A stretch of DNA of 32,392 nucleotides from NCBI GenBank assembly GCA_029257685.1, contig JARIAV010000119.1, positions 1 through 32,392 of the forward strand, written 5' to 3'. This document shows positions 3,231 through 20,236 of this stretch, piece after piece. Position 1 is the stretch's first letter, and every line of letters starts with the position of its first letter. Both the position numbers and the translations under genes were made by a program. Under the pieces are notes generated by a model. It searched no databases and had not been told where the DNA came from. It was given only the letters and a program-made list of their open reading frames with translations. The stretch is from Butyricicoccus sp. GTDB taxonomy: Bacteria; Bacillota; Clostridia; Oscillospirales; Butyricicoccaceae.

Positions 3231-5120
3231 ATGGAGAACACAAAGTGCCAAATGTGCCAAAGTGCGGACAAACCATTGGAGGCGTTTCTGGCGTCCGTGC
3301 CAGACGACCACTCACACCGCCGGATGATCCAGCAGGAGGTCAAATGCGGCTTCGGTCTGGATGGGGTATGCTGTAAGCTGTGCTCGAACGGTCCCTGCCG
3401 CATCTCGAAAGCACGCCCCAAGGGGGTCTGCGGTGCAGATGCGGATACCATCGTCGCCAGAAACTTCCTGCGTTCCGTGGCAGCAGGTTCTGGCTGCTAT
3501 ATCCATGTCGTAGAGGACGCCGCAAAGGAGCTGGAAGCCGCTGCCCTTGCCGGACGGCCGCTCAAGGGCATTGCGACCCTGCATCGCCTGTGCGATACGC
3601 TGGGCATCGCAGGGGAGACCGAGGCGCAAAAGGCACTCGCGCTGGCGCGTGCCATTTTGGAGGATCTGCGCCGCCCGCTCGAACAGAAAATGGTGCTGAC
3701 CGAAAAACTCGCCTATGGGATGCGTGCGGAGCTGTGGAAACAGATCGGCCTGCTGCCCGGCGGCGCAAAGGACGAGATCTTCAATGCGGTCGTCAAGACC
3801 TCTACGAACCTCAACTCCGATCCGGTGGACATGCTCATGCAGTGCCTGCGGCTGGGCATCTCGACCGGTCTCTATGGGCTGGTGCTCGTCAACCAGCTCA
3901 ATGATATCCTCATGGGCGAGCCCAAGCTGGGCTTCGATCCCGTGGGCATGCAGGTCATCGACCCCGACTGCATCAATATCATGGTCACCGGACACCAGCA
4001 GAGCATGTTTGGCAGTCTGACCGAGCTCATGGAACACCCTGCCATTCGTCAGATGGCACAGCAGGCAGGCGCGAAGGGCATGCGCATCGTAGGCTGCACC
4101 TGCGTCGGGCAGGATTTTCAGGTGCGCAGCAAGTGCTTTGAAAACGTATTCTGCGGCCATGCCGGAAACAACTATACCAGTGAGGCGGTGCTGCTGACCG
4201 GCTGCATCGACCTTGTCGTGTCCGAGTTCAACTGCTCCATTCCGGGCATCGAGCCCATCTGCGACAAGCTGGATATCCCCATGCTCTGTCTGGATGACGT
4301 GGCAAAGAAAAAGGGCGCAAAGCTGCTGCCCTATCAGCCTGCGCAGCGCGAGGAGATCAGCGCAGGCATCGTTGCCGCGGCGTTGGCATCTTTCACCAAA
4401 CGCCGCCGGAACGGCACACGCCAAAATCCCATGCGGCAGCATGGCTGTCATGAAGCGATCACGGGCGTGACCGAGGTGACGCTCAAGGACGCGCTCGGCG
4501 GCTCCTTTGCGCCCCTCATCGATCTCATTGCACAGGGCAAGATCAAGGGCGTTGCGGCAGTCGTGGGCTGCTCCAACCTGCGCGCCAAGGGGCACGATGT
4601 CTTCACCGTGGAGCTGGCAAAGAAACTCATCGCAAACGATATTTTGGTATTGTCCGCTGGCTGTACTTGCGGCGGACTGGAAAACTGCGGTCTGATGGCA
4701 CGCGAGGCGGCTTCCATGGCTGGCGCGGGGCTTTCCGAGGTGTGCCGCACGCTGGGCATCCCACCCGTGCTCAACTTCGGCCCCTGCCTTGCCATCGGGC
4801 GCATCGAGAGCGTCGCCGGAGCCCTCGCAGCAGCACTGGGCGTGGATCTGCCGCAGCTGCCCGTCGTGGTCTCCGCGCCGCAATGGCTGGAGGAGCAGGC
4901 ACTGGCAGACGGTGCGTTCGCACTCGCCCTTGGTTTCCACGTCCATCTGGGTCTGCCGCCCTTCGTGACGGGCAGTCCGGTGGTGCTCGATGTATTGGGT
5001 ACGCAGCTGGCGGATCTGACGGGCGGTAAACTCATCATCGAGACCGAGATCGACGAGGCGGCACGCAAGATCACAGACATCATTTCGGACAAGCGAAAGG
5101 GGCTGGGTCTGGATGGCTGA
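3231..5120 (+). CDS. cooS: Divergent Ni-containing CO dehydrogenase catalytic subunit (CooS family)
   Basis: The family interconverts CO and CO2 with ferredoxin electrons. In this 629-residue protein the D/B-cluster cysteines are present (C39, C47, C48, C51, C56, C67). So are all C-cluster ligands by alignment to C. hydrogenoformans CODH-II: H255, C291, C335, C447, C478 and C519. The residue matching the catalytic Lys563 is Gln (Q556, in APQWLEEQALADG), and the four histidines of the proposed proton channel (His93/96/99/102) appear as Y90, V93, D96 and K99. It is therefore a divergent member whose CO-oxidising rate may be low or whose chemistry may differ. No acetyl-CoA synthase or CooC maturase is in the window. 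It overlaps the hydrogenase gene by eight bases, suggesting translational coupling and a joint function. The hybrid-cluster protein family was considered, but length and Cys pattern favour CooS. Confidence 0.85.
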   Translation: MENTKCQMCQSADKPLEAFLASVPDDHSHRRMIQQEVKCGFGLDGVCCKLCSNGPCRISKARPKGVCGADADTIVARNFLRSVAAGSGCYIHVVEDAAKELEAAALAGRPLKGIATLHRLCDTLGIAGETEAQKALALARAILEDLRRPLEQKMVLTEKLAYGMRAELWKQIGLLPGGAKDEIFNAVVKTSTNLNSDPVDMLMQCLRLGISTGLYGLVLVNQLNDILMGEPKLGFDPVGMQVIDPDCINIMVTGHQQSMFGSLTELMEHPAIRQMAQQAGAKGMRIVGCTCVGQDFQVRSKCFENVFCGHAGNNYTSEAVLLTGCIDLVVSEFNCSIPGIEPICDKLDIPMLCLDDVAKKKGAKLLPYQPAQREEISAGIVAAALASFTKRRRNGTRQNPMRQHGCHEAITGVTEVTLKDALGGSFAPLIDLIAQGKIKGVAAVVGCSNLRAKGHDVFTVELAKKLIANDILVLSAGCTCGGLENCGLMAREAASMAGAGLSEVCRTLGIPPVLNFGPCLAIGRIESVAGALAAALGVDLPQLPVVVSAPQWLEEQALADGAFALALGFHVHLGLPPFVTGSPVVLDVLGTQLADLTGGKLIIETEIDEAARKITDIISDKRKGLGLDG

Positions 5121-6468
5121 GATGAACTGCGTACCGGTATGCCCAGACAATCCTGCGATCGTTAAGGATTTCACGCGCTGTGTCAGCTGCGGCCATTGTC
5201 TGGCAGTCTGTCGGGAGGAGATCGGCCCAGCCGCGAAATGTGCCCTTACAGGCGTATCGGACTTTGCCTGCGTCCACTGCGGACAGTGCACGACCGTCTG
5301 TCCGGAGCACGCCATCTATGCAAGACCGGACTGGGTGCGCGTGCGTGATGCCGTGCGTGATCCGGAGAAGATCGTTGTCATTTCCACCGCGCCCTCCGTG
5401 CGCTTGGGACTGGGCGACTGCTTTGGAGAGAAAAAGGGAGCGTTCGTGGAGGGCGAAATGGTCGCTGCCCTCAAGGCACTGGGCGCAGATTATGTGCTCG
5501 ATGTTGCCTTTGCCGCCGACCTCACCATCATGGAGGAGGGGACGGAGTTTTTAAGGCGGCTGCTGTCCGGCAAGGGGACGCTTCCGCAGTTTACCAGCTG
5601 CTGTCCGGCGTGGGTCAAGTATGTCGAGACCTTCCATCCGGCGCGTATCCCCAATCTTTCCAGCGCAAAAAGCCCCATCAGTATGCAGGGCGCACTCGTC
5701 AAGACCTATTTTGCACAGAAAATGGGGCTCGATCCCGAGCGTATCGTGACGGTCGCGGTCGCACCCTGCACGGCGAAGAAGTTCGAGATCACGCGCGAGG
5801 AACTGTGCGACGCCGGCGCGTTCCACGGCATTGCAGGTCTGCGCGACAATGACTATGTGCTGACCACGCAGGAGCTTGCCGACTGGATGCACGCAGAACA
5901 GCTCGACCTGACACGGCTTGCACCGGCGGATTTTGATTCCATCATGGGCAAGAGCAGCGGCGCCGGACTGATCTTCGGCAACACGGGCGGCGTGATGGAG
6001 GCTGCCCTGCGCATGGTCTATGCCTCGGTCACCGGACAGGAACCGACTGAGCTGCTGCTTGCATACACGCCCGTGCGCGGCATGGAGGAGGTCAAGGAAG
6101 CCACGGTCTCGGTGGGCGGCAAGGAGGTTCGGGTCGCGGTCGTTTACGGCACCAAGGCGGCGGAAGCCCTTATAGAAAGCGGTCAGATCGACACCTATCA
6201 TTTCGTGGAGGTCATGACCTGTCCCGGCGGCTGTATCAGCGGCGCCGGACAGCCGCGCGGCCCTGTGATCCCCGTACCCAATGCCCTGCGGCAGGCACGC
6301 ATCCACACGCTTTATGAGGCGGACAGAGCGCGGCCCATGCGCACGGCACTCGACAATCCGGAGATCGGCGCGCTCTATGACGCGTTCCTGACCCATCCAC
6401 TGAGCGAGCGGGCGGAGCAGCTGCTGCATACGGCTTACCACAGCAGACAGGTCACAAGGGATACATAA
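5113..6468 (+). CDS. Monomeric [FeFe]-hydrogenase with two [4Fe-4S] clusters
   Basis: A 451-residue hydrogenase. The N-terminal ferredoxin-like domain carries C23-x2-C26-x2-C29-x3-C33 and C53-x2-C56-x2-C59-x3-C63, plus two more cysteines at 6 and 10. The H-cluster domain shows TSCCPAW (161-167), APCTAKKFE and MTCPGGCISGAGQP, giving all four cluster cysteines and the proton-relay cysteine C163. The usual Met of the second motif (MPCTAKK) is Ala here. The start lies inside the end of cooS. The pair could couple CO oxidation to H2 release, or H2 oxidation to CO2 reduction, exchanging electrons directly or through ferredoxin. The HydE, HydF and HydG maturases must be encoded elsewhere. Confidence 0.9.
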   Translation: MAEMNCVPVCPDNPAIVKDFTRCVSCGHCLAVCREEIGPAAKCALTGVSDFACVHCGQCTTVCPEHAIYARPDWVRVRDAVRDPEKIVVISTAPSVRLGLGDCFGEKKGAFVEGEMVAALKALGADYVLDVAFAADLTIMEEGTEFLRRLLSGKGTLPQFTSCCPAWVKYVETFHPARIPNLSSAKSPISMQGALVKTYFAQKMGLDPERIVTVAVAPCTAKKFEITREELCDAGAFHGIAGLRDNDYVLTTQELADWMHAEQLDLTRLAPADFDSIMGKSSGAGLIFGNTGGVMEAALRMVYASVTGQEPTELLLAYTPVRGMEEVKEATVSVGGKEVRVAVVYGTKAAEALIESGQIDTYHFVEVMTCPGGCISGAGQPRGPVIPVPNALRQARIHTLYEADRARPMRTALDNPEIGALYDAFLTHPLSERAEQLLHTAYHSRQVTRDT

Positions 6469-6514: not shown

Positions 6515-6795
6515 GGTCGAAAAAAGCCATTTCCTGAGAAAAAAGGGCGGGGGAGAGGGGAACGGCTGCGCATGGCAGCAGGCGCAGAGCAGCGCGCAAA
6601 AACACTAGGAATTGTCAAATATGGTGTTTTTCAGACCTTGACGGCAGGATATTTTTGTACAAGTTCACAAAACAGCCGAAAACAAGAGGCTTGGAAATTA
6701 CCGTTTTTTCGCGTGAATTGGATAGGGAAAAAATGGGTGGAAATGGTAAAATTGATACAATGAAGTCTGGAACAGAAAGGAGCGTAACAAGAGAC

Positions 6796-6841
6796 GCATT
6801 TTCAGGGGAGGGAGATCGGTTTGCCGTTCCCTGAAAAATGC
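6796..6841 (+). promoter_or_regulatory. Long leader hairpin upstream of the membrane protein gene
   Basis: GCATTTTCAGGG pairs with CCCTGAAAAATGC (one bulge), with a GC-rich inner part. A smaller GCGT/ACGC hairpin precedes it, sharing its last bases. It has no trailing U-run and lies about 38 bases before the ATG, so a regulatory or stabilising leader is more likely than a terminator. Confidence 0.5.
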
Positions 6842-6878
6842 CGCATCACAATCAAATAGAGAAGGGAGAAATATCAGT

Positions 6879-7763
6879 ATGAACATCTTTGCTTTGGTCG
6901 CAGCGTTTGGAGGCGGCGTCATCGGTGCGTATATGGGTGCGCTCCCAGCGTTCATCCTCACAGGCGTGATCGCAATCGTTGGATCCTCTATCGCAATGGC
7001 AGGCGGCGCAGACCTCACGGTCGGTATGGTCGCCTTTGGCTCCTATCTTGGCCCGCATATCGCCTTTGCAGGCGGCGTGGCAGCGGCTGCATACGCAGCA
7101 AAAACAAAGAAGCTCGGAGACGGAACCGATATCCTGTCCTGTCTCAACGGTCTGACAGACCCCATGACCCTTGTGGTCGGCGGTGTGTTCGGCGTTCTGG
7201 GCTTCCTGATCCACTACCTCGTTGGCTCGGTTCTCCATCTCAATACAGACCTCCCCGGCATCACTGTCGTGATCTCGGGCATTCTGGTACGCTTCCTGTT
7301 CGGTTCTTCCGGCCTGATTGGCAAGGCACCGGAAGGACAGAAACGCGTATACTTTACCGCCGGAAAGGGCATGGCATGCAATACGCTGCTCGGCCTTGGC
7401 ATCGGTACCGCGACCGGATTCATCTATCAGGCCCTCGTGGATATGGGCGCACCGGATTTTGCCATCGGCAGCTTTCCTGTGCTCTGCTTCGGCATCGCAG
7501 CCGCTTCCCTCATCTTTGCACAGGCTGGCTTTGCAATGCCCGGCACCCACCACATCGCGCTGATCTCCGCGCTGGCAGCCGTCACCGCCGGAAACCCCAT
7601 CATGGGCCCGATCTTCGGTATCATCGCGTCCCTGCTGGGCGATCTGCTCGGCACGACCTTCAATACCAACTGTGATACCCATGTCGATCCACCGGCATTC
7701 ACCATTTTCATCCTGACCTTCGTCATCAATATCCTGTTTGGCACGGGATTCTTCATGGCGTAA
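6879..7763 (+). CDS. Uncharacterised multi-pass membrane protein
   Basis: I do not recognise this 294-residue protein. It is strongly hydrophobic and rich in Gly and Ala, with roughly eight or nine predicted membrane segments and short loops. Polar motifs inside hydrophobic stretches, such as LNTDLPGITV, AMPGTHH and NTNCDTHVDPPAFT, look conserved and could form a transport path. A transporter or channel is the natural guess, but the substrate is unknown. The start has GAAGGGAG about ten bases upstream. It is a single-gene unit with a structured leader and its own terminator. Nothing in the context ties it to the hydrogenase before it or the peroxidase after it. Confidence 0.8.
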   Translation: MNIFALVAAFGGGVIGAYMGALPAFILTGVIAIVGSSIAMAGGADLTVGMVAFGSYLGPHIAFAGGVAAAAYAAKTKKLGDGTDILSCLNGLTDPMTLVVGGVFGVLGFLIHYLVGSVLHLNTDLPGITVVISGILVRFLFGSSGLIGKAPEGQKRVYFTAGKGMACNTLLGLGIGTATGFIYQALVDMGAPDFAIGSFPVLCFGIAAASLIFAQAGFAMPGTHHIALISALAAVTAGNPIMGPIFGIIASLLGDLLGTTFNTNCDTHVDPPAFTIFILTFVINILFGTGFFMA

Positions 7764-7767
7764 CACA

Positions 7768-7815
7768 AAATACGACCCAGATTCCCAAAGTGCTGGGAGT
7801 CTGGGTCGTTGTTCT
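7768..7815. terminator. Bidirectional terminator
   Basis: ACGACCCAGA and TCTGGGTCGT form a perfect outer stem continued by TTCCCA/TGGGAG. It serves the membrane protein on the plus strand and the convergent peroxiredoxin gene on the minus strand. Confidence 0.85.
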
Positions 7816-8645
7816 TAGATTTCTTGGTTTGCAGATACGCCCGAATCCTGTCGGAGCAGGGTTTCGATCTTGTCAAGGCGGAAGCCTGAGATCTCATCCG
7901 TTCCAATGACGGTCACGGGCAGGGCGGTGTAGCCGCGGCTGTCCATGAATGCCTGTCCCTCCTTGTCGGTGGACAGGTCGATCTCTACATACGGGATGTG
8001 ATGCGCGCCGAGGAATTCCTTGGTCTTGGTGCAGTAGGAACACCCCGGCTGGGTGTAGATCTTTACGGGATCTTCCGTGGACAGGGGAGCGTCGGTCGCC
8101 ACAGACGGCGCGGACGGTTCGGGCGAGAGCGGCGCACTGCCGATCGTCCAGTTGGCACCGCACAGAGAACCGGTCTGCAACGCCTTCAATACCCGCAGCA
8201 CCTCGTCCGTATTGCGCCCGACATTGTTGTCATGGATCACGCTGTAGCGAATGGTCTGCTCCGGATCGATCAGGAACAGGCCGCGCAGGGCAACGCCCTC
8301 ATCCTCGAGCAGCACGCCATAGTCGGCAGCCATGGACATGGTCTTGTCCGCACCCAGCGGATAGGTGATCGCGCCCAAGCCGCTGCGGATCCATGCCTGA
8401 TGACAGTACACACTGTCCGTGCTGACACCAAGGATCTTGGCGTCTGCCTGCTCGAATGCCTCGATCGCCTGACTGAACGCGGTGATCTCGGTCGGACAGA
8501 CAAAGGTGAAGTCCAGCGGATAGAAGAACAGCACGAGCCAGTGCCCGCGGTAGCTGTCCAGAGACAGCTCCAAAAACTGCTCTCCGTCACCGGATACCGC
8601 CTGAATGTGAAAATCCGGTGCTTTCTTTCCAGTAAGTCGATTCAA
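7815..8645 (-). CDS. Peroxiredoxin-glutaredoxin fusion (AhpC/TSA + Grx)
   Basis: This 276-residue cytosolic peroxidase joins a typical 2-Cys peroxiredoxin to its own reductant module. The Prx part (1-167) has the peroxidatic Cys in FVCPTE (C50) and a candidate resolving Cys in SLCGANW (C162). A Pro/Ser/Ala linker (about 168-192) leads to a glutaredoxin/NrdH-like domain with CSYC (C202, C205) and the cis-Pro region TALPVTVIG. The fusion should reduce H2O2 or organic peroxides, using glutathione or thioredoxin reductase for electrons. The start is TTG, selected because AAAGGAGGT sits at the right distance and the sequence begins exactly at the Prx fold. It is divergent from the CPxC-repeat gene, with only 100 bases between them. 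Confidence 0.9.
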   Translation of the reverse strand: MNRLTGKKAPDFHIQAVSGDGEQFLELSLDSYRGHWLVLFFYPLDFTFVCPTEITAFSQAIEAFEQADAKILGVSTDSVYCHQAWIRSGLGAITYPLGADKTMSMAADYGVLLEDEGVALRGLFLIDPEQTIRYSVIHDNNVGRNTDEVLRVLKALQTGSLCGANWTIGSAPLSPEPSAPSVATDAPLSTEDPVKIYTQPGCSYCTKTKEFLGAHHIPYVEIDLSTDKEGQAFMDSRGYTALPVTVIGTDEISGFRLDKIETLLRQDSGVSANQEI

Positions 8646-8745
8646 AATATATACCTCCTTTGTTTCTATATGGGTTTATATTTGTTATAATGATATCATA
8701 AATCAAGGGATCGTACACTACTTTTTTTAAGGAGGACGTAAAAAA
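8646..8745. promoter_or_regulatory. Divergent promoter region with ATGATATCAT palindrome
   Basis: TGTTATAAT at 8683-8691 is an extended -10 for the small CPxC gene. It overlaps the perfect ten-base palindrome ATGATATCAT (8690-8699), which could be an operator. It resembles a PerR/Fur box only loosely. The minus-strand promoter for the peroxidase must overlap but could not be pinned down. Confidence 0.45.
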
Positions 8746-8967
8746 ATGAGCGAGAAAAAATATAGCGGCAGCTTTTACGGCGGAAATAAGCCGGCAGAAA
8801 CACCGGATACCTGCCCCAGCTGCATGTACCAGAAAAAAGAGGTCGAAAAAGACGTAGAGGACTGCCCGAACTGTATGTATCAGAAAAAAGATGCAGAAAA
8901 GGACGTGGAAGAATGTCCCAACTGCTTCTATACCTCCAATAAGGACAACAAGGAGAACAAAGAATAA
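8746..8967 (+). CDS. Small protein of three CPxC(M/F)Y repeats
   Basis: A 73-residue hydrophilic protein with a perfect 17-residue periodicity of Cys pairs: C23-P-S-C26, C40-P-N-C43 and C57-P-N-C60, each followed by (M/F)Y, and the first two then by a QKK(E/D)xEKDVE linker. Six cysteines in three CPxC pairs suggest metal binding (Zn or Fe) or thiol redox buffering. The Lys/Glu linkers look helical. An AAGGAGGA ribosome site and a downstream terminator support a real gene. It is divergent from the peroxiredoxin-glutaredoxin gene, so a role in oxidant or metal stress is plausible but inferred. I do not recognise a named family. Confidence 0.8.
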   Translation: MSEKKYSGSFYGGNKPAETPDTCPSCMYQKKEVEKDVEDCPNCMYQKKDAEKDVEECPNCFYTSNKDNKENKE

Positions 8968-8990
8968 AGCATATCGCATCCCCTGAGATC

Positions 8991-9047
8991 AGGATCCCCC
9001 ACGAGGATCGGTGAAGCACCGAATTTTCGTGGGGGATCTTTTCTTTT
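8991..9047 (+). terminator. Terminator after the CPxC-repeat gene
   Basis: GATCCCCCACGA pairs with TCGTGGGGGATC, and the stem ends in TTTTCTTTT. Confidence 0.85.
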
Positions 9048-9075
9048 CACTGCCCTTCAAAAAGGGCTGCACAGC

Positions 9076-9110
9076 CCCGCCTGTGGCGGAGTTCATACAT
9101 TCGCGCCCTT
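9076..9110. repeat. Palindrome-containing repeat, copy 1
   Basis: It starts with CCCGCCTGTGGCGGAG and continues with TTCATACATTCGCGCCCTT. The CCGCC/GGCGG dyad can fold into a tight hairpin. Copy 2 begins 71 bases downstream and differs at only a few positions. Confidence 0.6.
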
Positions 9111-9146
9111 GGGGTATTGCCGCAGAAAGAATCCGACCTCGGAAAT

Positions 9147-9181
9147 CCCGCCTGTGGCGGAGGTCATACTTTCACACCCTT
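9147..9181. repeat. Palindrome-containing repeat, copy 2
   Basis: It starts with CCCGCCTGTGGCGGAG and continues with GTCATACTTTCACACCCTT. Together with copy 1 it suggests an interspersed REP-like element of this genome. Confidence 0.6.
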
Positions 9182-9372
9182 TCGGCGGCACTAAGGTCGA
9201 TCCGATGGAGAGGGAGTGTGGGATTCATAAGGGCAAGAACCGCAAGGTTTCCTATCCTTTGGCCGCTGTCGTCGGCACGACACGTTTCCCTGCTTCTCGA
9301 AGCAAATCATGTATCAGAAATGAAAATCCAACGGATTCCCAAACCCTCCGCAGTCGGTGGAAACAAAAGCCT

Positions 9373-9837
9373 TTACAGCTGCTTTGCAAAAGCAGCAGCA
9401 TACGCAGCCACCGCCATATCCTGCTCCACCGTGCCGCCCGACACGCCAAGCCCACCGATGCAGCGCCCATCTACCATGATGGGCTCTCCACCGCCAAACA
9501 AACAGAATTTTCCAGGGTGCGTCTCCTGTAACCCATAGAGCGGCTGACCCGGTAAGACCGCCTGCGCCGCCTCCGCGGTCGAAAGCCGCAGTGCCGCCGC
9601 CGTATACGCCTTGGCGTGTGAGATCGCAATGCTGGCAAGCAGGGAATCATCCATGCGATGCAGGGCAACCACATTGCCCCCGTCATCGACCACGGTAAGC
9701 ACCATCGGGACCTGCATACTCTCTGCCATTTCCTCGCCCTGCTCGATCAACCGGCGGGCAAGGGCAAGCCCCATCCGCTCGCGGCGCATGGCGCGTACCA
9801 CGACATCCGCGATCTGCCGTACCTTGGGATCTTCCAT
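9373..9837 (-). CDS. HbpS/GlcG-family protein (PduO C-terminal-like)
   Basis: A 154-residue protein of the GlcG/HbpS/DUF336 fold, also found as the C-terminal domain of PduO. Typical features are ALARRLIEQGEEMA, the LTVVDDGGNVVALHRMDD segment, HAKAYTAA, and the glycine-rich C-terminal part GGEPIMVDGRCIGGLGVSGG. Members bind haem or cobalamin-like ligands, but the role in microcompartments is unproven. No adenosyltransferase domain is present, which fits a B12-independent pathway. It is the last gene of the minus-strand arm, 17 bases after pduT. The ATG at 9837 has AAAGGAGGGG eight bases upstream. Confidence 0.85.
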   Translation of the reverse strand: MEDPKVRQIADVVVRAMRRERMGLALARRLIEQGEEMAESMQVPMVLTVVDDGGNVVALHRMDDSLLASIAISHAKAYTAAALRLSTAEAAQAVLPGQPLYGLQETHPGKFCLFGGGEPIMVDGRCIGGLGVSGGTVEQDMAVAAYAAAFAKQL

Positions 9838-9854
9838 CCGAACATCCCCTCCTT

Positions 9855-10400
9855 TTACAATAAGCTGCGGTAAAGCTCCCGATCCGGATGCGCGATCACA
9901 ACCTGATCGATCAGCGTGCCGCTCTGCTCGACCGACTTCGCTCCGGCACGCACGCCTTCCTCTACCGCACCGACATCACCTGTAAACGTCACGAACGACT
10001 TGCCGCCGATGCCCGTACCCAGCCGGATTTCGATCAGAGAGATATTCGCCGCCTTTGCCGCTGCATCTGCCGCAATGATCGCCCCCGTGACCGAGAAGAA
10101 TTCAAGGATACCGAGCGCGTTCAGCTTCTGCGGCATGGACGCCATGTTGATCGCCTCGATGACCTGCGGACTGACACGGGGGATGAGCAGGCTGTCCACG
10201 ACGTTTGCCTTCGCCGCTTCCTCACCGGCACGCAGGGAGGACTCCACGGCGGAGACCTCACCCGAAATCAACACCTGATACTTGCCGGGGCAGCTGGGCT
10301 TCGCCGCGATCAGCCGAACCTCTGCCGCCTTGATCATGGTGTCTGCCGCCAGAATGCCCTTGGCAATGCTGTTCAGCTCCAAAAAACCAATGGTAATCAT
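9855..10400 (-). CDS. pduT: BMC-T shell protein PduT (pore Fe-S cluster type)
   Basis: A 181-residue protein made of two tandem BMC domains (about 1-90 and 93-181) that assembles as a trimeric pseudohexamer in the shell. The segment AAKPSCPGKYQV matches the conserved Cys-Pro-Gly-Lys turn that places one Cys per subunit at the pore, where PduT binds a [4Fe-4S] cluster. The second domain holds the usual GTGIGGKSFVTFTGDVGAVEEG-type core. It probably shuttles electrons across the shell with PduS. The start was set at the ATG that overlaps the pduS stop (ATGA) and has AAGGAGGGG upstream; longer reading would run into pduS. Confidence 0.93.
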   Translation of the reverse strand: MITIGFLELNSIAKGILAADTMIKAAEVRLIAAKPSCPGKYQVLISGEVSAVESSLRAGEEAAKANVVDSLLIPRVSPQVIEAINMASMPQKLNALGILEFFSVTGAIIAADAAAKAANISLIEIRLGTGIGGKSFVTFTGDVGAVEEGVRAGAKSVEQSGTLIDQVVIAHPDRELYRSLL

Positions 10401-11767
10401 AAAACCCCTCCTTCGGACTGCGTGTCCGCACAGATCACGATCTCCGCCTCGGAAACCGCCGTGACCGTGCCTGCAATGCTTGCATGGATATTTGCACCGA
10501 GCGCGTTTTCCGGGATCGCGCCGATCAGCTGGCCGCAAGCCACCCGATCCCCGCACTGTACCACCGGCTTTGACGGCGCACCGATGTGCTGACGCAGGGA
10601 AATGCGTACCTGCTGCGGCTGTGCCTCGATGCAGGTATGGATCTTGTAATCATAGTACCCATCGACCCCGAGCCGCACCGCCATGCGCTTGCTGGGTGCT
10701 CTGCGGTATGCACGCGTTTCCAGCTGGGTGAACGTTCCCTCCGGCTTGGGGTATCGGAAGCCCTTTTGCCGGAGCAGGTTCTTGAGGTAGATGTTGACCT
10801 GCCGCGGCTGCAAGCCCATCGGGCAGGCGTAGGTCTCGCAAAGACCACATTCGCTGCAGATCATGGACTGCTGCACATGGGGATCGTCCAAGATCTCCTC
10901 GGGCGATGCGGCATACGCCAGCTTGCGCATGATGAGATGGGGCTTGAGCGGGTGTCCGGTCAGATAGCGCGGGCACATCTCCGTGCAGTAGGAGCACTGG
11001 ATACATGACGTCTTTGCGCGCTTGAGCGAGACCGAGATCGGGATCGCACGCTTTTGCACGAGCGGCGTGTCATCGGATACCAGAATAAAGCCCGATGTCG
11101 TCTTGGTCACGGTCAGCTTGTCCGCTTCCGCCATCGAGAAGCACTTGCCCATCATGGGGCCGCCCACGATCACATGGTACGAGGAAAGCAGACTGCCGCC
11201 TGCCGCCGCCAGACATTCCGCGAAGGACGTGCCCAGCGGTGCATGGACGATGCAGGGCGACGCGACCGCACCGGTCACGGTCAGATACTTGCCGGTGAAC
11301 GGCTTGCCCAGAGACGCCTCGTAGATGGAATACACCGTTGCGAGGTTGGATACGACCGCGCCCACGTCGAGCGGGATACCGGTCGGCGGCACGGTGCGCC
11401 CCGTGACCTCACAGACCATGATCTGTTCGTCACCAGCCGGATAGAAATTGCGCATCTTGTGCAGGGCGACCGGTGCGTTTGCCTGCCGGATGGCGTCCTC
11501 CAGTGCGGCGATCTCCTCCGTGTAGGTCTCCTTCAAGGCGATCACACAGGTCTGCGCCTGCACCATTTCACGGATCATGGTGACGGCGGCGACGATCTCA
11601 CGCGCCTTGTAGAGCATGAGCCAGCGATCGGTGCGCAGGAGCGGCTCACACTCGGCGGCATTGACGATCAGGTACTCGACCGTACAGTTGAGTTTGACAT
11701 GGGTGGGAAAACCGGCTCCGCCGCAGCCGACGATACCGGCTTCCTTGATTTGTTCGAGCAGCGTCAT
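10397..11767 (-). CDS. pduS: PduS, RnfC-like Fe-S flavoprotein
   Basis: A 456-residue electron-transfer protein related to RnfC. The N-terminal half has the nucleotide and flavin-binding fold, with GIVGCGGAGFPTHVKL and NAAECEPLL. The middle holds two [4Fe-4S] motifs, CIQCSYCTEMCPRYL and CSECGLCETYACPMGL. The C-terminus ends in a lipoyl-like beta domain (NIHASIAGTVTAV). In B12 Pdu systems PduS reduces cobalamin; here no B12 enzyme is present, so it more likely oxidises NADH or passes electrons to PduT for internal cofactor recycling. The ATG at 11767 follows AAGGGGAG; an upstream in-frame start at 11827 lacks such a site. Confidence 0.92.
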   Translation of the reverse strand: MTLLEQIKEAGIVGCGGAGFPTHVKLNCTVEYLIVNAAECEPLLRTDRWLMLYKAREIVAAVTMIREMVQAQTCVIALKETYTEEIAALEDAIRQANAPVALHKMRNFYPAGDEQIMVCEVTGRTVPPTGIPLDVGAVVSNLATVYSIYEASLGKPFTGKYLTVTGAVASPCIVHAPLGTSFAECLAAAGGSLLSSYHVIVGGPMMGKCFSMAEADKLTVTKTTSGFILVSDDTPLVQKRAIPISVSLKRAKTSCIQCSYCTEMCPRYLTGHPLKPHLIMRKLAYAASPEEILDDPHVQQSMICSECGLCETYACPMGLQPRQVNIYLKNLLRQKGFRYPKPEGTFTQLETRAYRRAPSKRMAVRLGVDGYYDYKIHTCIEAQPQQVRISLRQHIGAPSKPVVQCGDRVACGQLIGAIPENALGANIHASIAGTVTAVSEAEIVICADTQSEGGVL

Positions 11768-11793
11768 AGATACTCCCCTTTCATAGTTTGTAT

Positions 11794-11857
11794 GGGCGCG
11801 AAGGATACCGGATGGCAGGGGAGACACGGATCCCCCTCATATCCGGAACGCGCGCCC
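11794..11857 (-). promoter_or_regulatory. Three-tier hairpin in the pduS leader
   Basis: Nested complementary arms are GGGCGCG/CGCGCCC (7 bases), CCGGAT/ATCCGG (6 bases) and GGGGA/TCCCC (5 bases) with an eight-base loop, separated by small internal loops. It lies between the likely transcription start (about 11911) and the pduS ATG. No U-run follows. Possible RNA regulator or stability element; not matched to a known riboswitch. Confidence 0.5.
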
Positions 11858-11917
11858 CGAACAGACAGCTTGTTTGACGGGATCTCTGCGTGCGCCAAAA
11901 AATCCCTTGCTTACCTT

Positions 11918-11947
11918 ATTATATAAGAAAACCGCGCAGGGGTACAA
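11918..11947 (-). promoter_or_regulatory. Promoter for the pduS-pduT-hbpS arm
   Basis: On the minus strand: TTGTAC, an 18-base spacer and a consensus TATAAT. It leaves a leader of roughly 145 bases that contains the hairpin at 11794-11857. Confidence 0.55.
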
Positions 11948-12121
11948 TAACAGCACAGCCTAAAAAGAGGTACGATACAATCCTGCTTCCCCAAGGGGGA
12001 GGTCTGGAAAATACAAAAAACAGGTTTGCTCCTTACCTGAATGTCAGTGGGGTTCGTGGTACAATCAAATCAGTATCGTGGATGGATACAGCAGACCGGA
12101 AATGGAAGGGCGATCGTGGAT

Positions 12122-12502
12122 ATGGAAATCAAAAATTGGAATGGCAGTCAGAGCGACCTCATGCGTATCGTGCAGGAGTCCGTTCCGGGCAAACAGATCA
12201 CGATGGCGCACATCATCGCAAGTCCGGACGAGATCATATACCGCAAGCTGGGACTCGATCCCAGACAGGACTACAACCATTCTGCCATCGGCGTTCTGAC
12301 GCAGACACCCAGTGAAACGGCGATCATCACCGCCGATCTCGCCATCAAGGCGGCGGCGATCGAGATCGGGTTCATCGATCGGTTCAGCGGTACACTCATC
12401 ATCACGGGTACGATCTCTGATGTGAACATCGCGTTCGAGCGCATACTGGACTATACCGCGCGTGAGTTGGGCTTTACCGTCTGCAAGATCACCAAGGCCT
12501 AG
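12122..12502 (+). CDS. pduU: PduU/EutS-type BMC-H shell protein (permuted)
   Basis: A 126-residue circularly permuted BMC-H protein. Hallmarks are IVQESVPGKQITMAHIIA near the N-terminus, SAIGVLTQTPSETAIITADLAIKAA and EIGFIDRFSG, as in PduU and EutS. The family forms hexamers with a small beta-barrel capping the pore. It starts the plus-strand arm and is ten bases before pduV, its usual partner. The ATG at 12122 was chosen because residues before it match nothing in the family, although the ribosome site is weak (GAAGGG about eleven bases away). Confidence 0.92.
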   Translation: MEIKNWNGSQSDLMRIVQESVPGKQITMAHIIASPDEIIYRKLGLDPRQDYNHSAIGVLTQTPSETAIITADLAIKAAAIEIGFIDRFSGTLIITGTISDVNIAFERILDYTARELGFTVCKITKA

Positions 12503-12511
12503 GGAAGCACC

Positions 12512-12985
12512 ATGAAAAAGATCATGCTGGTCGGGCGCAGCGGCGCAGGGAAAACCACCCTCACACAGGCGCTCAAGGGGAAAAAGATCACCTATCACAA
12601 GACACAGTACATCAATCACTATGATGTCATCATCGATACGCCGGGCGAATACGCCGAGAACAAGACCCTTGCACGCGCCCTTGTCATCTACTCCTATGAA
12701 GCCGATGTGGTGGGGCTTTTGATGAGCGCGACCGAGGATTATTCCCTGTACAGCCCCAATATCGTCTCGATGGCAACGCGGGACGTCATCGGCATCGTCA
12801 CACAGATCGACCGTCCGGAGGCAAGGTGTGACCTTGCTGCCATGCGGCTCGAATTGTGCGGCTGCAAGAAGATCTTTTATGTCAGCTCCATCACCGGAGA
12901 GGGTGTGGGAGATATTTTGGAATACCTCAGAGAGGACGGCGACGTGCTCCCTTGGGAACAGGAACAGAAGGAGGAGACCGAATGA
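12512..12985 (+). CDS. pduV: PduV/EutP-family small GTPase-like protein
   Basis: A 157-residue P-loop protein with [10 protein letters not shown] (G1, residues 8-17), IIDTPGEY (G3) and TQID in place of NKxD (G4), typical of PduV/EutP. PduV has been linked to shell association through PduU and to microcompartment movement. The EutP branch has also been proposed as an acetate kinase, and no other short-chain acyl kinase is encoded here. It lies between pduU and the DJ-1 gene, overlapping the latter by four bases (ATGA). Confidence 0.9.
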
Positions 12986-13560
12986 AGCGTGTACTCATGC
13001 TTGCAGGGGACTATACCGAGGACTATGAGGTCATGGTACCCTATCAGGCACTCGAAATGGCGGGCGTATCCGTCGATGTGGTGTGTCCGGACAAGTCCGC
13101 CGGAGACAGCATCCGCACGGCGATCCATGATTTCGAGGGCGATCAGACCTATTCGGAAAAGCCGGGGCACAATTTCGTGCTCAATGCGTCCTTTGCGTAT
13201 CTGCGGCTCGAACAGTATGACGGTCTGTTCCTGACCGGCGGCCGTGCACCCGAATACCTGCGGCTCGATCCGCGTGTATTGGATATTGTACGTTTCTTCA
13301 TGGAGCTGCACAAGCCTGTCGCGGCGATCTGCCACGGCGTGCAGATCCTTACGGCGGCAGATGTGCTCCGCGGCAGGCGCGTCACCGCATATCCGGCGGT
13401 AAAACCCGAAGTTTTGGCGGTCGGCGGCGATTTTGTGGACGCACAGCCCCACGAAGCGGTCGTTTTTGAAAACCTCGTCACCGCACCGGCATGGCCCGGC
13501 AATATCGAGATCCTCAGGGGCTTCCTGCACCTTTTGGGGATCACCTTTACAGAGCGGTGA
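12982..13560 (+). CDS. DJ-1/PfpI-family protein in the BMC operon
   Basis: A 192-residue class-I amidotransferase-like protein. The nucleophile elbow is [10 protein letters not shown] (C117), an acidic residue suited to activate it lies in the YTEDYE segment (E13 or E16), and APAWPGN is typical of the PfpI/YhbO branch. Members act as glyoxalase III-type enzymes, protein or nucleotide deglycases, or chaperones, and protect against reactive carbonyls. Translationally coupled to pduV, it could deal with leaked propionaldehyde or methylglyoxal, but that role is inferred. The start was set at the ATG overlapping the pduV stop. Confidence 0.88.
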
Positions 13561-13590
13561 GCCGGAGAAAACACAAGAAGTCTGGATTTT

Positions 13591-13616
13591 GCATTTTTTC
13601 AGTCTTGAAAATATGC
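13591..13616. promoter_or_regulatory. Dyad upstream of the radical enzyme gene (candidate operator)
   Basis: GCATTTTTTCA and TGAAAATATGC form 11-base arms (10 of 11 paired) around GTCT. The right arm overlaps TTGAAA (13605-13610), which could be a -35 element. A second small dyad, GATAC-G-GTATC, lies at 13632-13642. Candidate site for the AraC-type regulator, not demonstrated. Confidence 0.4.
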
Positions 13617-13657
13617 CGTCTTTTCGTGAAAGATACGGTATCATGGAAGCCAGAGAG

Positions 13658-13712
13658 TGATGCCCCAAAGGGGATCGCCAAAAAAACAGAAAGCGTAATG
13701 CCCCAAAGCATT
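13658..13712 (+). promoter_or_regulatory. Leader with repeated ATGCCCCAAAG hairpins
   Basis: ATGCCCCAAAG occurs twice, 38 bases apart, just before the radical-enzyme ribosome site. The first copy folds as CCCC-AAA-GGGG, the second as AATGC-CCCAAA-GCATT. The second ends a few bases before AAAGGAGG. Confidence 0.4.
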
Positions 13713-13732
13713 ATCATAAAGGAGGATGTTTT

Positions 13733-16279
13733 ATGTTAGCAAAAGGATTTTCGGAACCAACTGAGAGAGTGAAGCGTCTGAAAAAGGCGATCGTAGATGC
13801 CACCCCCTATGTTGAGTCCGAACGCGCTGTACTGGTAACAGAGTCTTATAAGGAGACCGAAGGTCTTTCCCCGATCATGAGACGCGCGAAGGCTGCGGAA
13901 AAGATCTTCAACAATCTGCCCATCACCATCCATGAGGATGAGCTTGTCGTAGTCTCTATCACAAAGAACCTGCGCTCCACGGAGATCTGTCCGGAATTCT
14001 CCTACGACTGGGTGGAGAAGGAATTCGACACCATGGGGACCCGTCTGGCTGACCCGTTCCAGATCCCCAAGGAGACCGCCGCAGAGCTGCATGAAGCGTT
14101 CAAGTACTGGGAAGGCAAGACCACCAGCGCGCTGGCAGAGTCCTATATGTCGCAGGAGACCAAGGACTGCATCGCAAACGGCGTGTTCACGGTCGGCAAC
14201 TACTTCTACGGCGGCGTCGGCCATGTGTGCGTAGACTATGGCAAGGTGCTGCGCATCGGCTTCACCGGCATCATCAAGCAGGTCATCGAAGCCATGACCA
14301 AGCTCGATACCAGTGATCCGGAGTACATCAAGAAAAAGAACTTCTACGAAGCACTCGTTATCACATATTCCGCTGCGATCAACTTTGCACACCGCTATGC
14401 GGCAAAGGCAAGAGAGCTTGCAGCTGTCTGCCCCGATCCGGTGCGCAAGGCAGAGCTCGTACAGATCGCTGCAAACTGTGACCGCGTCCCCGAACACGGC
14501 GCAACCAATTTCTATGAAGCATGTCAGGCGTTCTGGTTCGTACAGATCATGCTCCAGATCGAGGCAAACGGTCACTCCATCTCTCCAGGACGCTTTGACC
14601 AGTATATGTATCCGTTCCTCAAGGCAGATACCAATATCTCCCGCGAATTCGCACAGGAACTGGTCGACTGCATCTGGGTCAAGCTCAACGACGTCAACAA
14701 GACCCGTGACGAGATCTCCGCACAGGCATTCGCAGGCTACGCCGTATTCCAGAACCTGATCGTCGGCGGTCAGACCGAGGACGGACTGGACGCAACCAAT
14801 GACGTTTCCTATATGTGTATGGAAGCCGTTGCACACGTCAGACTGCCTGCACCGTCCTTCTCCATCCGCGTACACCAGAACACACCGGACGAGTTCCTGT
14901 ACCGCGCATGTGAAGTCACCCGTCTGGGTCTGGGTGTTCCGGCGATGTACAATGACGAAGTCATCATTCCGGCACTCTGCAACCGCGGCGTATCGCTGGC
15001 GGACGCAAGAAGCTACTGCATCATCGGCTGTGTCGAGCCGCAGTGCCCGCACAAGACCGAGGGCTGGCATGATGCCGCATTCTTCAACATCGCAAAGGTA
15101 CTCGAGATCACGCTGAACAACGGTAAGGTCGGCGACAAGCAGCTCGGCCCCGTCACCGGCGACATGACCTCCTTTACTTGCCTTGAAGATATCTTTGCAG
15201 CATATAAGAAGCAGATGGAATACTTCGTTTACCATCTGGCTGAGGCAGACAACTGCGTAGACTTTGCCCATGCAGAGCGCGCACCGCTGCCGTTCCTCTC
15301 CGCACTCGTCGATGACTGCATCGGCCGCGGCAAGAGCGTGCAGGAGGGCGGCGCGATCTACAACTTCACCGGCCCGCAGGCGTTCGGTGTTGCAGACTCC
15401 GGTGACTCCCTCTGCGCGATCAAGAAGCATGTATTCGAGAGCAAGGAAGTCACGATGGCACAGCTCAAGGAAGCAATGGCACATAACTTCGGTTATTCCT
15501 GCACCGCTTCCGCTCCGGCTGCACAGACCGCCGACTGCTCCGACGAGAGCAAGATCTATGAGGCGATCAAGCGCATCCTGTCCAATAACGGCTCCATCAA
15601 TCTGGCAGAGCTCCAGAACGAGCTGAGCACCCCGAGCACCACCACCTGCACCGCACAGCCTGCTTGCAGCAATGCGGACTATGCACAGATCAAGCGCATC
15701 ATGGAAAATACCCCGTGGTTCGGCAACGACGAGGACGAGGTCGATATGATCGCAAGACGCTGCGGACAGATCTACTCCTACGAGGTAGAAAAGTATAAGA
15801 ACCCGCGCGGCGGACAGTTCCAGGCCGGCTGCTATCCGGTATCGGCAAACGTACTGTTCGGTAAGGACGTTGCAGCACTGCCGGATGGCCGTCTGGCAAA
15901 GGCACCACTCGCAGACGGTGTTTCCCCGCGTCAGGGCATGGATACCAAGGGCCCGACCGCAGCTGCGATGTCCGTTGCAAAGCTCGACCATGCAAACTAC
16001 TCCAACGGCACGCTGTACAACCAGAAGTTCCTGCCGTCCGCGCTCGCAGGCGATGAAGGACTCATGCGCTTCGCTTCCGTGGTCCGCTCTTACTTCGACC
16101 ACAAGGGCATGCATGTACAGTTCAACGTCATCGACAAGGCGACCCTGATCGCAGCACAGCAGGATCCGGAGAAGTACAAGGATCTGGTCGTTCGCGTTGC
16201 AGGTTACAGCGCACAGTTCACCGTACTGGCGAAGGAAGTACAGGACGACATCATCAGCCGTACCGAGCAGTCGTTCTGA
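13733..16279 (+). CDS. Glycyl radical 1,2-propanediol (diol) dehydratase, BMC type
   Basis: The signature enzyme, 848 residues. Its glycyl radical loop is RVAGYSAQF (G824), and the thiyl Cys and general base are C433 and E435 in GCVEPQ. H164, H281, S282, D447, C433 and E435 fall at exactly the positions known for the B12-independent glycerol dehydratase of C. butyricum; its Tyr339 is Phe here. This points to a diol dehydratase (propanediol to propionaldehyde) and not choline lyase, despite the shared GCVEP motif. The C433-G824 spacing is about 60 residues longer than in glycerol dehydratase, because of an insertion at about 588-650 with Ala/Thr/Cys-rich linkers and a helix. AAAGGAGGA precedes the ATG. 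The activase gene follows directly. Confidence 0.9.
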   Translation: MLAKGFSEPTERVKRLKKAIVDATPYVESERAVLVTESYKETEGLSPIMRRAKAAEKIFNNLPITIHEDELVVVSITKNLRSTEICPEFSYDWVEKEFDTMGTRLADPFQIPKETAAELHEAFKYWEGKTTSALAESYMSQETKDCIANGVFTVGNYFYGGVGHVCVDYGKVLRIGFTGIIKQVIEAMTKLDTSDPEYIKKKNFYEALVITYSAAINFAHRYAAKARELAAVCPDPVRKAELVQIAANCDRVPEHGATNFYEACQAFWFVQIMLQIEANGHSISPGRFDQYMYPFLKADTNISREFAQELVDCIWVKLNDVNKTRDEISAQAFAGYAVFQNLIVGGQTEDGLDATNDVSYMCMEAVAHVRLPAPSFSIRVHQNTPDEFLYRACEVTRLGLGVPAMYNDEVIIPALCNRGVSLADARSYCIIGCVEPQCPHKTEGWHDAAFFNIAKVLEITLNNGKVGDKQLGPVTGDMTSFTCLEDIFAAYKKQMEYFVYHLAEADNCVDFAHAERAPLPFLSALVDDCIGRGKSVQEGGAIYNFTGPQAFGVADSGDSLCAIKKHVFESKEVTMAQLKEAMAHNFGYSCTASAPAAQTADCSDESKIYEAIKRILSNNGSINLAELQNELSTPSTTTCTAQPACSNADYAQIKRIMENTPWFGNDEDEVDMIARRCGQIYSYEVEKYKNPRGGQFQAGCYPVSANVLFGKDVAALPDGRLAKAPLADGVSPRQGMDTKGPTAAAMSVAKLDHANYSNGTLYNQKFLPSALAGDEGLMRFASVVRSYFDHKGMHVQFNVIDKATLIAAQQDPEKYKDLVVRVAGYSAQFTVLAKEVQDDIISRTEQSF

Positions 16280-16324
16280 GTGAAGCGATAAGGTTCCGGC
16301 ACCAAACAGAGAAGGGAGTTCGGC

Positions 16325-17242
16325 ATGGACTCGATCAATTACAACGTATCGGGAACGGTCTTTGATATCCAGAGATTTTCCCTGCACGATGGCCCGGGTA
16401 TCCGGACGATCGTATTCCTGAAAGGCTGTCCGCTCTCCTGCCAGTGGTGCAGTAACCCTGAATCCCAGAAAACAAAACCGGTGGTCATGTATAAACAAGC
16501 CGATTGTCTCCACTGCGGGCGGTGCATCACCGCCTGCAAGCTGGGGGCGATCAGCCCGAACAACAAGCACTGGATCGATCGCTCGATCTGTACGGGCTGC
16601 GGCGAATGTGTCCATGCCTGTCCGGCAGGCGCGCTCGTGCGCAAGGGCAAGACGATGACCGTTCAGCAGGTGATTCAGGAACTGAAAAAGGATGCAACGA
16701 CCTACCGCCGTTCGGGCGGCGGCGTGACCTTATCAGGCGGAGAACCCCTGATGCAGTCCGCCTTTGCCGCCGAGCTGCTCAAGGCCTGCAAGGGGCAGGG
16801 CTGGAACACGGCGATCGAAACCACTGGACTTGGGACCGCTGAGGCGATCGAAACGGTCATCCCCTATGTGGATACCGTGCTGCTCGACATCAAGCACACC
16901 GATCCCGAACAGCACAGAAAATATACCGGCAGCACCAATGAGGTCATCCTCAAAAACGCGCTGCGCATCAGTCAGATCTCGAACACGGTCGTTCGCGTAC
17001 CCGTGATCCCGAGATTCAACTTTTCGGTGGAGGCGATCTCCAAGATCGCAGAATACGCAAAGACCCTTATGGGCGTGCGTACCATCCACCTCCTGCCTTA
17101 CCATACCTTTGGTGAGAACAAGTATGACTTGCTGGGCAAGGAATACCTACTGAAAGACATCAAGCCGCTGCATCCGGAGGATCTCGCGGCATGCAAGAAG
17201 GCTGTGGAAAGCTATGGCTTCCAATGTATCATTGGCGGTTGA
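16325..17242 (+). CDS. Glycyl radical enzyme activase (radical SAM)
   Basis: A 305-residue radical-SAM enzyme that abstracts H from the Gly of the diol dehydratase. The SAM cluster motif is C35-PLS-C39-QW-C42. An inserted ferredoxin-like domain carries CLHCGRCITAC and CTGCGECVHAC for two auxiliary [4Fe-4S] clusters. The glycine-rich SAM-binding segment is VTLSGGEPLMQ. The start has GAAGGGAG upstream and lies 45 bases after the dehydratase. It consumes one SAM per activation, which may explain metK further down the operon. Confidence 0.95.
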   Translation: MDSINYNVSGTVFDIQRFSLHDGPGIRTIVFLKGCPLSCQWCSNPESQKTKPVVMYKQADCLHCGRCITACKLGAISPNNKHWIDRSICTGCGECVHACPAGALVRKGKTMTVQQVIQELKKDATTYRRSGGGVTLSGGEPLMQSAFAAELLKACKGQGWNTAIETTGLGTAEAIETVIPYVDTVLLDIKHTDPEQHRKYTGSTNEVILKNALRISQISNTVVRVPVIPRFNFSVEAISKIAEYAKTLMGVRTIHLLPYHTFGENKYDLLGKEYLLKDIKPLHPEDLAACKKAVESYGFQCIIGG

Positions 17243-17270
17243 GGCGAATCGACGAACGGAGGAAAGACGA

Positions 17271-18074
17271 ATGGATCAACAGTTGATTGAAAAAGTAATG
17301 AAGCAGGTTTCAGATGAATTGGGCATCAAGCCGGCCGCTCCCGAAGCAGCACCTGCTCCGGCAGCACCGCAGGAGCCTGCAAAGACCAATATCGGTCTGA
17401 CAGAATTTGTTGGTACCGCAATGGGCGATACCATCGGTCTTGTGATCGCAAGCGTGGACCCGATGCTGGTCGATGTCATGAAGCTCGGCAAGTATCGCTC
17501 CATCGGTATCATCGGCGGCCGCGTGGGTGCAGGCCCGCAGATCTGGGCGGTGGATGAAGCCGTAAAGGCAACCAACACCGAGATCATTTCCGTAGAACTG
17601 CCACGCGATACCAAGGGCGGCGCAGGACACGGCAGCCTCATCTACATCGGCGCAGACGATGTATCCGATGCAAGACGCGCCGTTGAGATCGCACTTCAGG
17701 TACTGCCCAAGTATTTTGGCGACGTCTATGCAAACGATGCCGGCCATATCGAGTTCCAGTACACCGCAAGAGCAAGCTACTGTCTCGAAAAGGCACTGGG
17801 CGCACCGGTCGGCAGAGCATTCGGCATGACCTGCGCAGGTCCGGCTGCCATCGGCACCGTGCTCGCGGATATCGCAGTCAAGGCGGCGAACGTAGAGGTC
17901 GTTGGCTATTGCTCCCCGACGAGCGGCACGAGCTATTCCAACGAGGTCATTTTGACCTTTACCGGTGATTCCGGTGCTGTCCGTCAGGCGGTCAGAGCGG
18001 CGATCGATGCCGGAAAGAAGATGCTGGGCGCACTCGGAGACGCTCCGAAGTCCACCACCACACCGTATATCTGA
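17271..18074 (+). CDS. pduB: BMC-T shell protein PduB
   Basis: A 267-residue protein with two tandem BMC domains after an N-terminal extension. The extension is an amphipathic helix (residues about 2-17, QQLIEKVMKQVSDELG) and an Ala/Pro linker up to residue 45, as in PduB, where this part tethers the enzyme core to the shell. The core has IGIIGGRVGAGPQIWAVDEA and AFGMTCAGPAAIGTV, typical of the trimeric gated pore. No internal start for a short PduB' form is apparent. GGAGGAAAG precedes the ATG. A hairpin follows the gene at 18089-18113. Confidence 0.94.
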   Translation: MDQQLIEKVMKQVSDELGIKPAAPEAAPAPAAPQEPAKTNIGLTEFVGTAMGDTIGLVIASVDPMLVDVMKLGKYRSIGIIGGRVGAGPQIWAVDEAVKATNTEIISVELPRDTKGGAGHGSLIYIGADDVSDARRAVEIALQVLPKYFGDVYANDAGHIEFQYTARASYCLEKALGAPVGRAFGMTCAGPAAIGTVLADIAVKAANVEVVGYCSPTSGTSYSNEVILTFTGDSGAVRQAVRAAIDAGKKMLGALGDAPKSTTTPYI

Positions 18075-18088
18075 TCTCCGGAAGGGAG

Positions 18089-18113
18089 CCCGAAACGCTC
18101 GGGCGTTTTCGGA
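18089..18113 (+). other. Hairpin between pduB and pduA
   Basis: CCGAAACG and CGTTTTCGG pair (one bulge) around a CTCGGG loop. No U-run, so it may mark an RNA processing or stability site rather than a terminator. Confidence 0.4.
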
Positions 18114-18151
18114 ACGCAGATACGACGACTTGGGATAGGAGGTCCTAACAT

Positions 18152-18430
18152 ATGAATGCAGATGCATTGGGCATGGTTGAGACAAAAGGTCTGGTCGGCG
18201 CGATCGAAGCAGCCGATGCAATGGTAAAGGCAGCCAATGTCACACTGGTTGGATATGAAAAGATCGGTTCCGGTTTGGTGACCGTTATGGTACGCGGCGA
18301 CGTGGGCGCAGTCAAGGCTGCGACCGACGCAGGCGCGGCTTCCGCGGCAGCGGTTGGCGAAGTGGTATCCACGCACGTCATCCCGCGCCCGCATACCGAT
18401 GTGGAAAAGATTCTGCCTCATCTTGAATAA
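18152..18430 (+). CDS. pduA: BMC-H shell protein (PduA type)
   Basis: A 92-residue canonical hexameric shell protein: [20 protein letters not shown], then [20 protein letters not shown], ending [12 protein letters not shown]. The pore-lining loop KIGSGLV matches PduA/PduJ, whose pore passes small polar diols. It is identical to the BMC-H at 22772-23050 at about 78 of 92 positions. Ribosome site TAGGAGGT. Confidence 0.95.
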
Positions 18431-18465
18431 TGTATGGCTGCATCGCAACAGAGCAGCTGCAAAGG

Positions 18466-18494
18466 ATTCCCTTATCCCCTGCGGATAGGGGAGT
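18466..18494 (+). other. Hairpin after pduA
   Basis: CCCTTATCC pairs with GGATAGGGG around CCTGC, followed by AGTTCTTT. The short T-run may give partial termination, which would raise shell-protein output relative to downstream genes. Confidence 0.5.
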
Positions 18495-18516
18495 TCTTTG
18501 AAACGAGGTGAAAGGA

Positions 18517-19278: not shown

Positions 19279-19299
19279 GCAGGAATGTGAGGTGATAGG

Positions 19300-19869: not shown

Positions 19870-19920
19870 GCACATGCCATAGGACGGGCGATCCGCACGC
19901 CGCGAAAGGAAGGAAACACA

Positions 19921-20184: not shown

Positions 20185-20236
20185 AGTCCGTGGAACGATC
20201 CGGAGCTATCTTATAAAAAAGGAGGGAATGTGTGAT

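Follow-up and report, generated by a model that had tools for sequence, protein, structure and literature searches.

Peroxiredoxin-glutaredoxin (Prx-Grx) hybrids, such as that of Haemophilus influenzae, consist of a peroxiredoxin fused to a C-terminal glutaredoxin domain with a CxxC motif. In the Butyricicoccus sp. DNA analyzed here (32,392 nucleotides, hereafter the window), a minus-strand gene with a TTG start at positions 7815 to 8645 encodes a protein of this architecture. It matched the profiles PF00578 (E = 7e-37) and PF00462 (E = 2e-11), in agreement with the initial annotation, which had named a peroxiredoxin-glutaredoxin as the divergent neighbor of a small CPxC-repeat gene. The cysteines of the Prx part (C50 and C162, peroxidatic/resolving) and of the Grx motif CSYC (C202 and C205) are all invariant in the Prx-Grx alignment. 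Unlike in hybrids such as that of H. influenzae, the Prx part belongs to the AhpC/typical 2-Cys type, and a microcompartment locus holds the gene together with its partner, which encodes a CxxC mini-protein.

The locus resembles the GRM3 type. In the portions of PMC4207490, against which gene content was compared, and of PMC6325248 that were available, GRM3 loci contain a glycyl radical diol dehydratase, an activase, aldehyde dehydrogenase, PduL, PduS, MetK, EutJ, DUF336, and a two-component pair, all of which have counterparts in the window. However, those portions describe GRM3 loci without a peroxiredoxin, a glutaredoxin, or a CxxC mini-protein. The rest of the GRM3-like locus spans 9373 to 26074 and includes genes for a putative glycyl radical diol dehydratase (13733 to 16279), its activase (16325 to 17242), MetK (21575 to 22753), HbpS/DUF336, BMC shell proteins, PduS-like, PduV-like, DJ-1/PfpI, EutN-like, PduL-like, and EutJ-like proteins, and two acylating aldehyde dehydrogenases. 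Both dehydrogenases of this one locus (20228 to 21550 and 24599 to 26074) belong to the PRK15398 subfamily. MetK and DUF336/HbpS were assigned by profile, and EutJ, PduL, PduS, and the two-component pair were named from sequence and synteny only. An acetate kinase, recognized by eye in locus L011, was not identified in the window.

Among the best PDB relatives of the glycyl radical enzyme were the B12-independent glycerol dehydratase 1r8w and the diol dehydratase 5i2a, and the enzyme has an extra stretch around 588-658, as expected of diol/glycerol dehydratases. The locus is predicted to encode a 1,2-propanediol-type glycyl radical dehydratase with its cognate activase. The string "peroxi" is absent from the 2014 and 2021 surveys searched, and the literature found, partial texts included and most subscription journals being outside its scope, discusses no peroxiredoxin or glutaredoxin in such loci.

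The mini-protein gene lies on the plus strand at 8746 to 8967, and its translation, MSEKKYSGSFYGGNKPAETPDTCPSCMYQKKEVEKDVEDCPNCMYQKKDAEKDVEECPNCFYTSNKDNKENKE followed by a stop, has 73 residues. The units CPSCMY, CPNCMY, and CPNCFY occupy residues 23-28, 40-45, and 57-62, and translation confirmed the exact 17-residue CPxC(M/F)Y period that had been noticed initially. When the residues were shuffled 200,000 times, two or more CPxC motifs arose in 56 cases and three in none. The translation and termination signals, which the initial annotation had called strong, were borne out as well. The ribosome binding site AAGGAGG (plus strand, 8729 to 8735) is located 10 nt ahead of the ATG, and AGGAGG is present ahead of the gene in orthologues too. 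Folding of the stretch after the stop codon predicted an intrinsic terminator on the plus strand, a hairpin at about 8991 to 9040 (−37.7 kcal/mol; z = −8.6; no shuffle equally good). No Pfam or NCBIfam model matched the mini-protein of the window at its curated cutoff, an Rfam scan of 6700 to 12100 gave no match, and inspection by eye revealed no signal-like N terminus.

An open reading frame that is short, of low complexity, and without a family match could be no gene at all, or a leader peptide only. We consider this extremely improbable in view of the purifying selection, the conserved ribosome binding site, the terminator, and homologues in three families. Indeed, among four close orthologues, pN was 0.007 to 0.021 and pS was 0.075 to 0.57; these values contradict the reading as a noncoding frame and show, at the codon level, that the mini-protein gene is real and under strong purifying selection. 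Furthermore, the mini-protein is not a leader in seven loci, because it is divergent from Prx-Grx there.

Homologues were searched for in about 1,990 sampled genomes. With the mini-protein of the window as the query, no other copy was found in its own family (40 relatives at E ≤ 1e-3; the genus at a relaxed E), and the seed scan of the genome collection revealed no homologue. In 391 genomes of the class, this query gave only matches with E values of 0.004 to 0.009, with no small CPxC-repeat protein among them. Searches of plasmids, phages, and viral contigs yielded no homologue, and a PDB search gave nothing at E ≤ 1 and only chance-level matches at E ≤ 10. Homologues were reached via the neighboring gene. 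Used as a seed in the genome collection, Prx-Grx led to four loci (71 to 74% identity) from Enterocloster-type clostridia, each with a two-unit mini-ORF divergent from Prx-Grx; three of these mini-ORFs encode 56 residues, exactly 17 fewer than the 73 of the window. Two further genomes of the Enterocloster genus came from a profile search, which brought the two-unit form to six genomes of another family (52 to 56 residues, usually exactly 17 shorter than the protein of the window). When the order of the window was searched with the mini-protein profile, three distant homologues from a third family were found. They have about 68 to 71 residues and, at irregular spacing, three C-x2-C-[FH]-Y units, of which two form the core and one is N-terminal. 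The search for homologues with different repeat numbers thus returned two-unit forms from six genomes and three-unit forms from three, and conservation beyond this strain extends to nine other genomes of two other families. In one of these genomes (G493, locus L013), the mini-ORF (around 3865 to 4038) and Prx-Grx (4122 to 4902) are both frameshifted in the draft, which may reflect joint decay or a draft/assembly error.

Alignment of the ten core sequences revealed a common core of two units of the form C-x2-C-[bulky]-Y-(Q). The cysteines of both CxxC pairs are invariant, as is the Tyr that follows each pair after one intervening residue, an upstream Y...ETP segment is kept in nearly all sequences, and the core spacing is 12 to 14 residues. 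Even spacing of three units is confined to the protein of the window, and the 17-residue period is not family-wide. Unit 1 of the window (CPSCMYQKKEVEKDVED, 8812 to 8862, plus strand) is the extra unit; together with unit 2 (CPNCMYQKKDAEKDVEE, 8863 to 8913, plus strand) it makes up a 51-bp tandem duplication within the gene. Unit 2 aligns to the family's first core unit, and unit 3 (CPNCFY, 8914 to 8931, plus strand) is the second core unit, kept in all homologues. Unit 1 shares 78% identity in DNA and 76% in amino acids with unit 2, against 53% and 29%, respectively, with unit 3. Given this similarity of units 1 and 2, and since unit 3 is like the final unit of the orthologues, the extra unit is best read as the product of a tandem duplication; the two-unit orthologues have exactly one such unit fewer. 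Because the core CxxC pairs and Tyr residues are kept across the ten sequences, we conclude from the alignment that the mini-proteins are a real family, with a core of two units to which two lineages apparently added, independently, a third of their own.

Prx-Grx adjoins the mini-protein gene in 10/10 loci. The window and the six Enterocloster-genus loci have the divergent pair, and in the three distant loci the mini-protein gene lies just upstream of Prx-Grx, close by and on the same strand. Of 17 genomes searched in the Enterocloster genus, the same six hold both genes. No other strong Prx-Grx match was found in 87 genomes of the window's family, and in a 398-genome sample of the phylum, nine other matches at E ≤ 1e-60 all covered the Prx part only. 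At the sister locus G342 (glycyl radical enzyme 86% identical), mini-protein and Prx-Grx are missing together: HbpS adjoins the membrane protein gene that precedes the pair in the window, with a terminator alone between them. Likewise, neither gene was present in the stretch read of G362 and G305 (glycyl radical enzymes 70% and 68% identical). The 10/10 pairing is partly ascertained, as most two-unit loci were found via Prx-Grx or its genus, and nine of the ten loci stem from only two lineages. Independent evidence comes from the joint absence in G342 and from the three distant loci, which an unbiased search of genomes recovered with only the mini-protein profile as the query. Gene content and order across these loci show that the mini-protein and Prx-Grx are a co-inherited pair in propanediol-type microcompartment loci. 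Of the initial interpretation, the link to peroxide defense is well supported by this co-occurrence in two gene arrangements and by the joint absence at the sister locus, but the propanediol-type microcompartment setting of the pair had been missed.

All ten mini-protein loci are microcompartment loci, of the propanediol type as far as tested, and in the three distant loci the pair sits between shell genes. The distant locus G1468, in which alone the PduC and PduO assignments were made, encodes PduC (propanediol/glycerol dehydratase; NF011979, above cutoff) and a PduO-like protein. In this it is like B12-dependent PDU loci, for which, however, the literature found describes no peroxiredoxin/CxxC pair. 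A role of the pair specific to glycyl radicals was rejected on account of this PduC. Since the signature enzyme is a glycyl radical enzyme in the window and the B12-dependent PduC in G1468, the pair, as read from these loci, follows propanediol compartments and not glycyl radicals. The mini-protein might be a microcompartment component with no tie to Prx-Grx beyond the common locus, for example, a cargo adaptor, a thiol scavenger of propionaldehyde, or a metal chaperone for PduS or the activase. The setting of the ten loci and the position between shell genes in three of them would suit this. However, the related loci without Prx-Grx (G342, G362, and G305) also lack the mini-protein, which itself has neither a shell domain nor an obvious amphipathic helix for encapsulation, and we regard such a role as improbable. 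A tetracysteine shell-protein tail (PduK-like) was rejected as the source of the motif, as no shell protein read has C..C[bulky]Y.

Other features of these loci were also observed. A 294-residue putative membrane protein (6879 to 7763, plus strand), unmatched by Pfam and NCBIfam, keeps its syntenic position in G342 and in the mini-protein loci, of both the glycyl-radical and the B12 propanediol kind; it is a candidate transporter of the pathway. A CO dehydrogenase catalytic subunit (TIGR01702) and an FeFe hydrogenase (3231 to 6468) directly adjoin the GRM3-like locus, and in several genomes they also adjoin the Enterocloster-genus loci where the stretch read covers them. In both locus types, some shell proteins have a long C-terminal tail of low complexity that is rich in Pro/Glu and, at or near its end, in Lys/Arg (19300 to 19869 in the window; 17829 to 18533 in L090; 271 to 768 in L092).

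The intergenic region of the divergent pair contains the element GTTATAATGATATCATAAAT (8684 to 8703), with the back-to-back −10-like hexamers TATAAT (plus strand, 8686 to 8691) and TATGAT (minus strand, 8700 to 8695). It has a single match within the window, and no good −35 was found near it on either strand. TATAAT-N-ATATCA is kept in all seven divergent loci, with the minus-strand reading TATGAT in most. The AT-rich palindrome that had been reported for the shared promoter, ATGATATCAT, does exist at 8690 to 8699, but conservation does not extend to its palindromic form: ATCATATCAT stands in its place in two of the seven loci, while both −10 hexamers stay. A function as an operator is therefore not supported, and the palindrome is better read as overlapping divergent −10 boxes, an arrangement that suggests mutually exclusive or co-regulated transcription. 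Divergent genes with overlapping −10 boxes, as in these seven loci, are typical of regulator-target pairs, and the mini-protein could be a small thiol or zinc-finger protein that senses oxidation and controls Prx-Grx through the shared promoter. We hold this to be quite unlikely, as the protein is acidic (net charge −3 to −8), has no helix-turn-helix or other DNA-binding match, and is encoded next to Prx-Grx and co-directionally with it in three loci.

AlphaFold2 models, made with metals absent and 7 to 10 sequences, had a mean pLDDT of 43 for the three-unit and 52 for the two-unit form and showed no hairpin and no strands. About 70% of the residues of the mini-proteins are disorder promoting. 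The mini-protein is probably soluble and mostly unstructured, with C-x2-C-[bulky]-Y dithiol units as its working parts. The strongest rival to a role of these dithiols as redox partners of Prx-Grx is a small zinc-ribbon or rubredoxin-like protein in which two CxxC knuckles form a tetrathiolate site for a single Zn or Fe. Loaded with Fe, such a protein would carry one electron at a time; loaded with Zn, it would be structural or a redox switch that releases zinc. The third knuckle of the window would supply a further pair of ligands or an alternative one. The core C-x2-C-x(12-14)-C-x2-C, present in 10/10 sequences, is near the spacing of rubrerythrin and zinc ribbons. Such knuckles often have a Tyr at the second position past the second Cys, as is also the case here. 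Sub-threshold profile matches of the members were to rubredoxin-like models (RUBY_RBDX in 4/8 members; best E = 9e-4), several zinc-ribbon models, and cytochrome c7 models, and the RPB9 zinc ribbon in the PDB matched at chance level (E = 0.23). Multiheme cytochrome c7 (PF14522) with CxxCH motifs was rejected because His is found only in some units, with F, M, Y, I, or L elsewhere.

In contrast to the rubredoxin-like domain of rubrerythrin (PF21349) and small zinc ribbons (DZR, Zn_Ribbon_1), the protein of the window remained below every curated cutoff (15.4 bits against a cutoff of 26.5), and no hairpin was predicted. Moreover, CAQCFY and CNQCFY of L086/L087 lack the Pro and the Gly that usually follows the knuckle, no Gly is conserved in the family, and odd unit counts and irregular spacing fit paired knuckles poorly. 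We therefore rather doubt a metal site of this kind, while considering it a real possibility.

Our preferred reading, held tentatively and with slightly less than even confidence, is that the flexible CxxC mini-protein acts with Prx-Grx as a thiol-redox partner or as a thiol/metal reserve. The link to Prx-Grx is strong; the chemistry we infer. The units indeed behave as units, with the 17-residue tandem duplication in the window, a separate N-terminal unit in the distant group, and the core spacing of 12 to 14 residues. We favor this redox role because of the unit-by-unit growth, the variable spacing, the high charge, and the lack of a predicted fold. The clostridial glutaredoxin domain may be without glutathione as a reductant, and the dithiols of the mini-protein would donate electrons to, or accept disulfides from, the Grx or Prx cysteines; alternatively, the mini-protein would be a reserve of thiols or of thiolate-bound metal. 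More units would mean more dithiol capacity, which would explain the variable unit number and spacing. The pair would clear peroxide near an oxygen-sensitive pathway with its radical dehydratase, the Fe-S protein PduS, and Cys-dependent aldehyde dehydrogenase. Against this role, CxxC pairs 12 to 14 residues apart equally suit a zinc-ribbon or rubredoxin-like site, and the neighborhood of the genes is no proof of physical interaction between the mini-protein and Prx-Grx. A more specific proposal, which we think unlikely on balance, is that this new family of largely unstructured CxxC-x-Y mini-proteins is a dedicated dithiol electron relay for the Prx-Grx peroxidase, replacing glutathione or thioredoxin and forming an oxygen-defense module common to glycyl-radical and B12 propanediol microcompartments.

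The mini-protein is described by no family library, and its pairing with Prx-Grx in such loci is absent from the literature found, part of which was available as excerpts. To our knowledge, few studies have addressed how strict anaerobes shield the radical enzymes and Fe-S proteins of microcompartments, which are sensitive to oxygen. If the redox role is true, a peroxidase and a tiny dithiol protein in glycyl-radical and B12 propanediol loci would represent a defined, small, and testable protection mechanism, and the pair could reveal how the glutaredoxin domain functions in bacteria that may lack glutathione.
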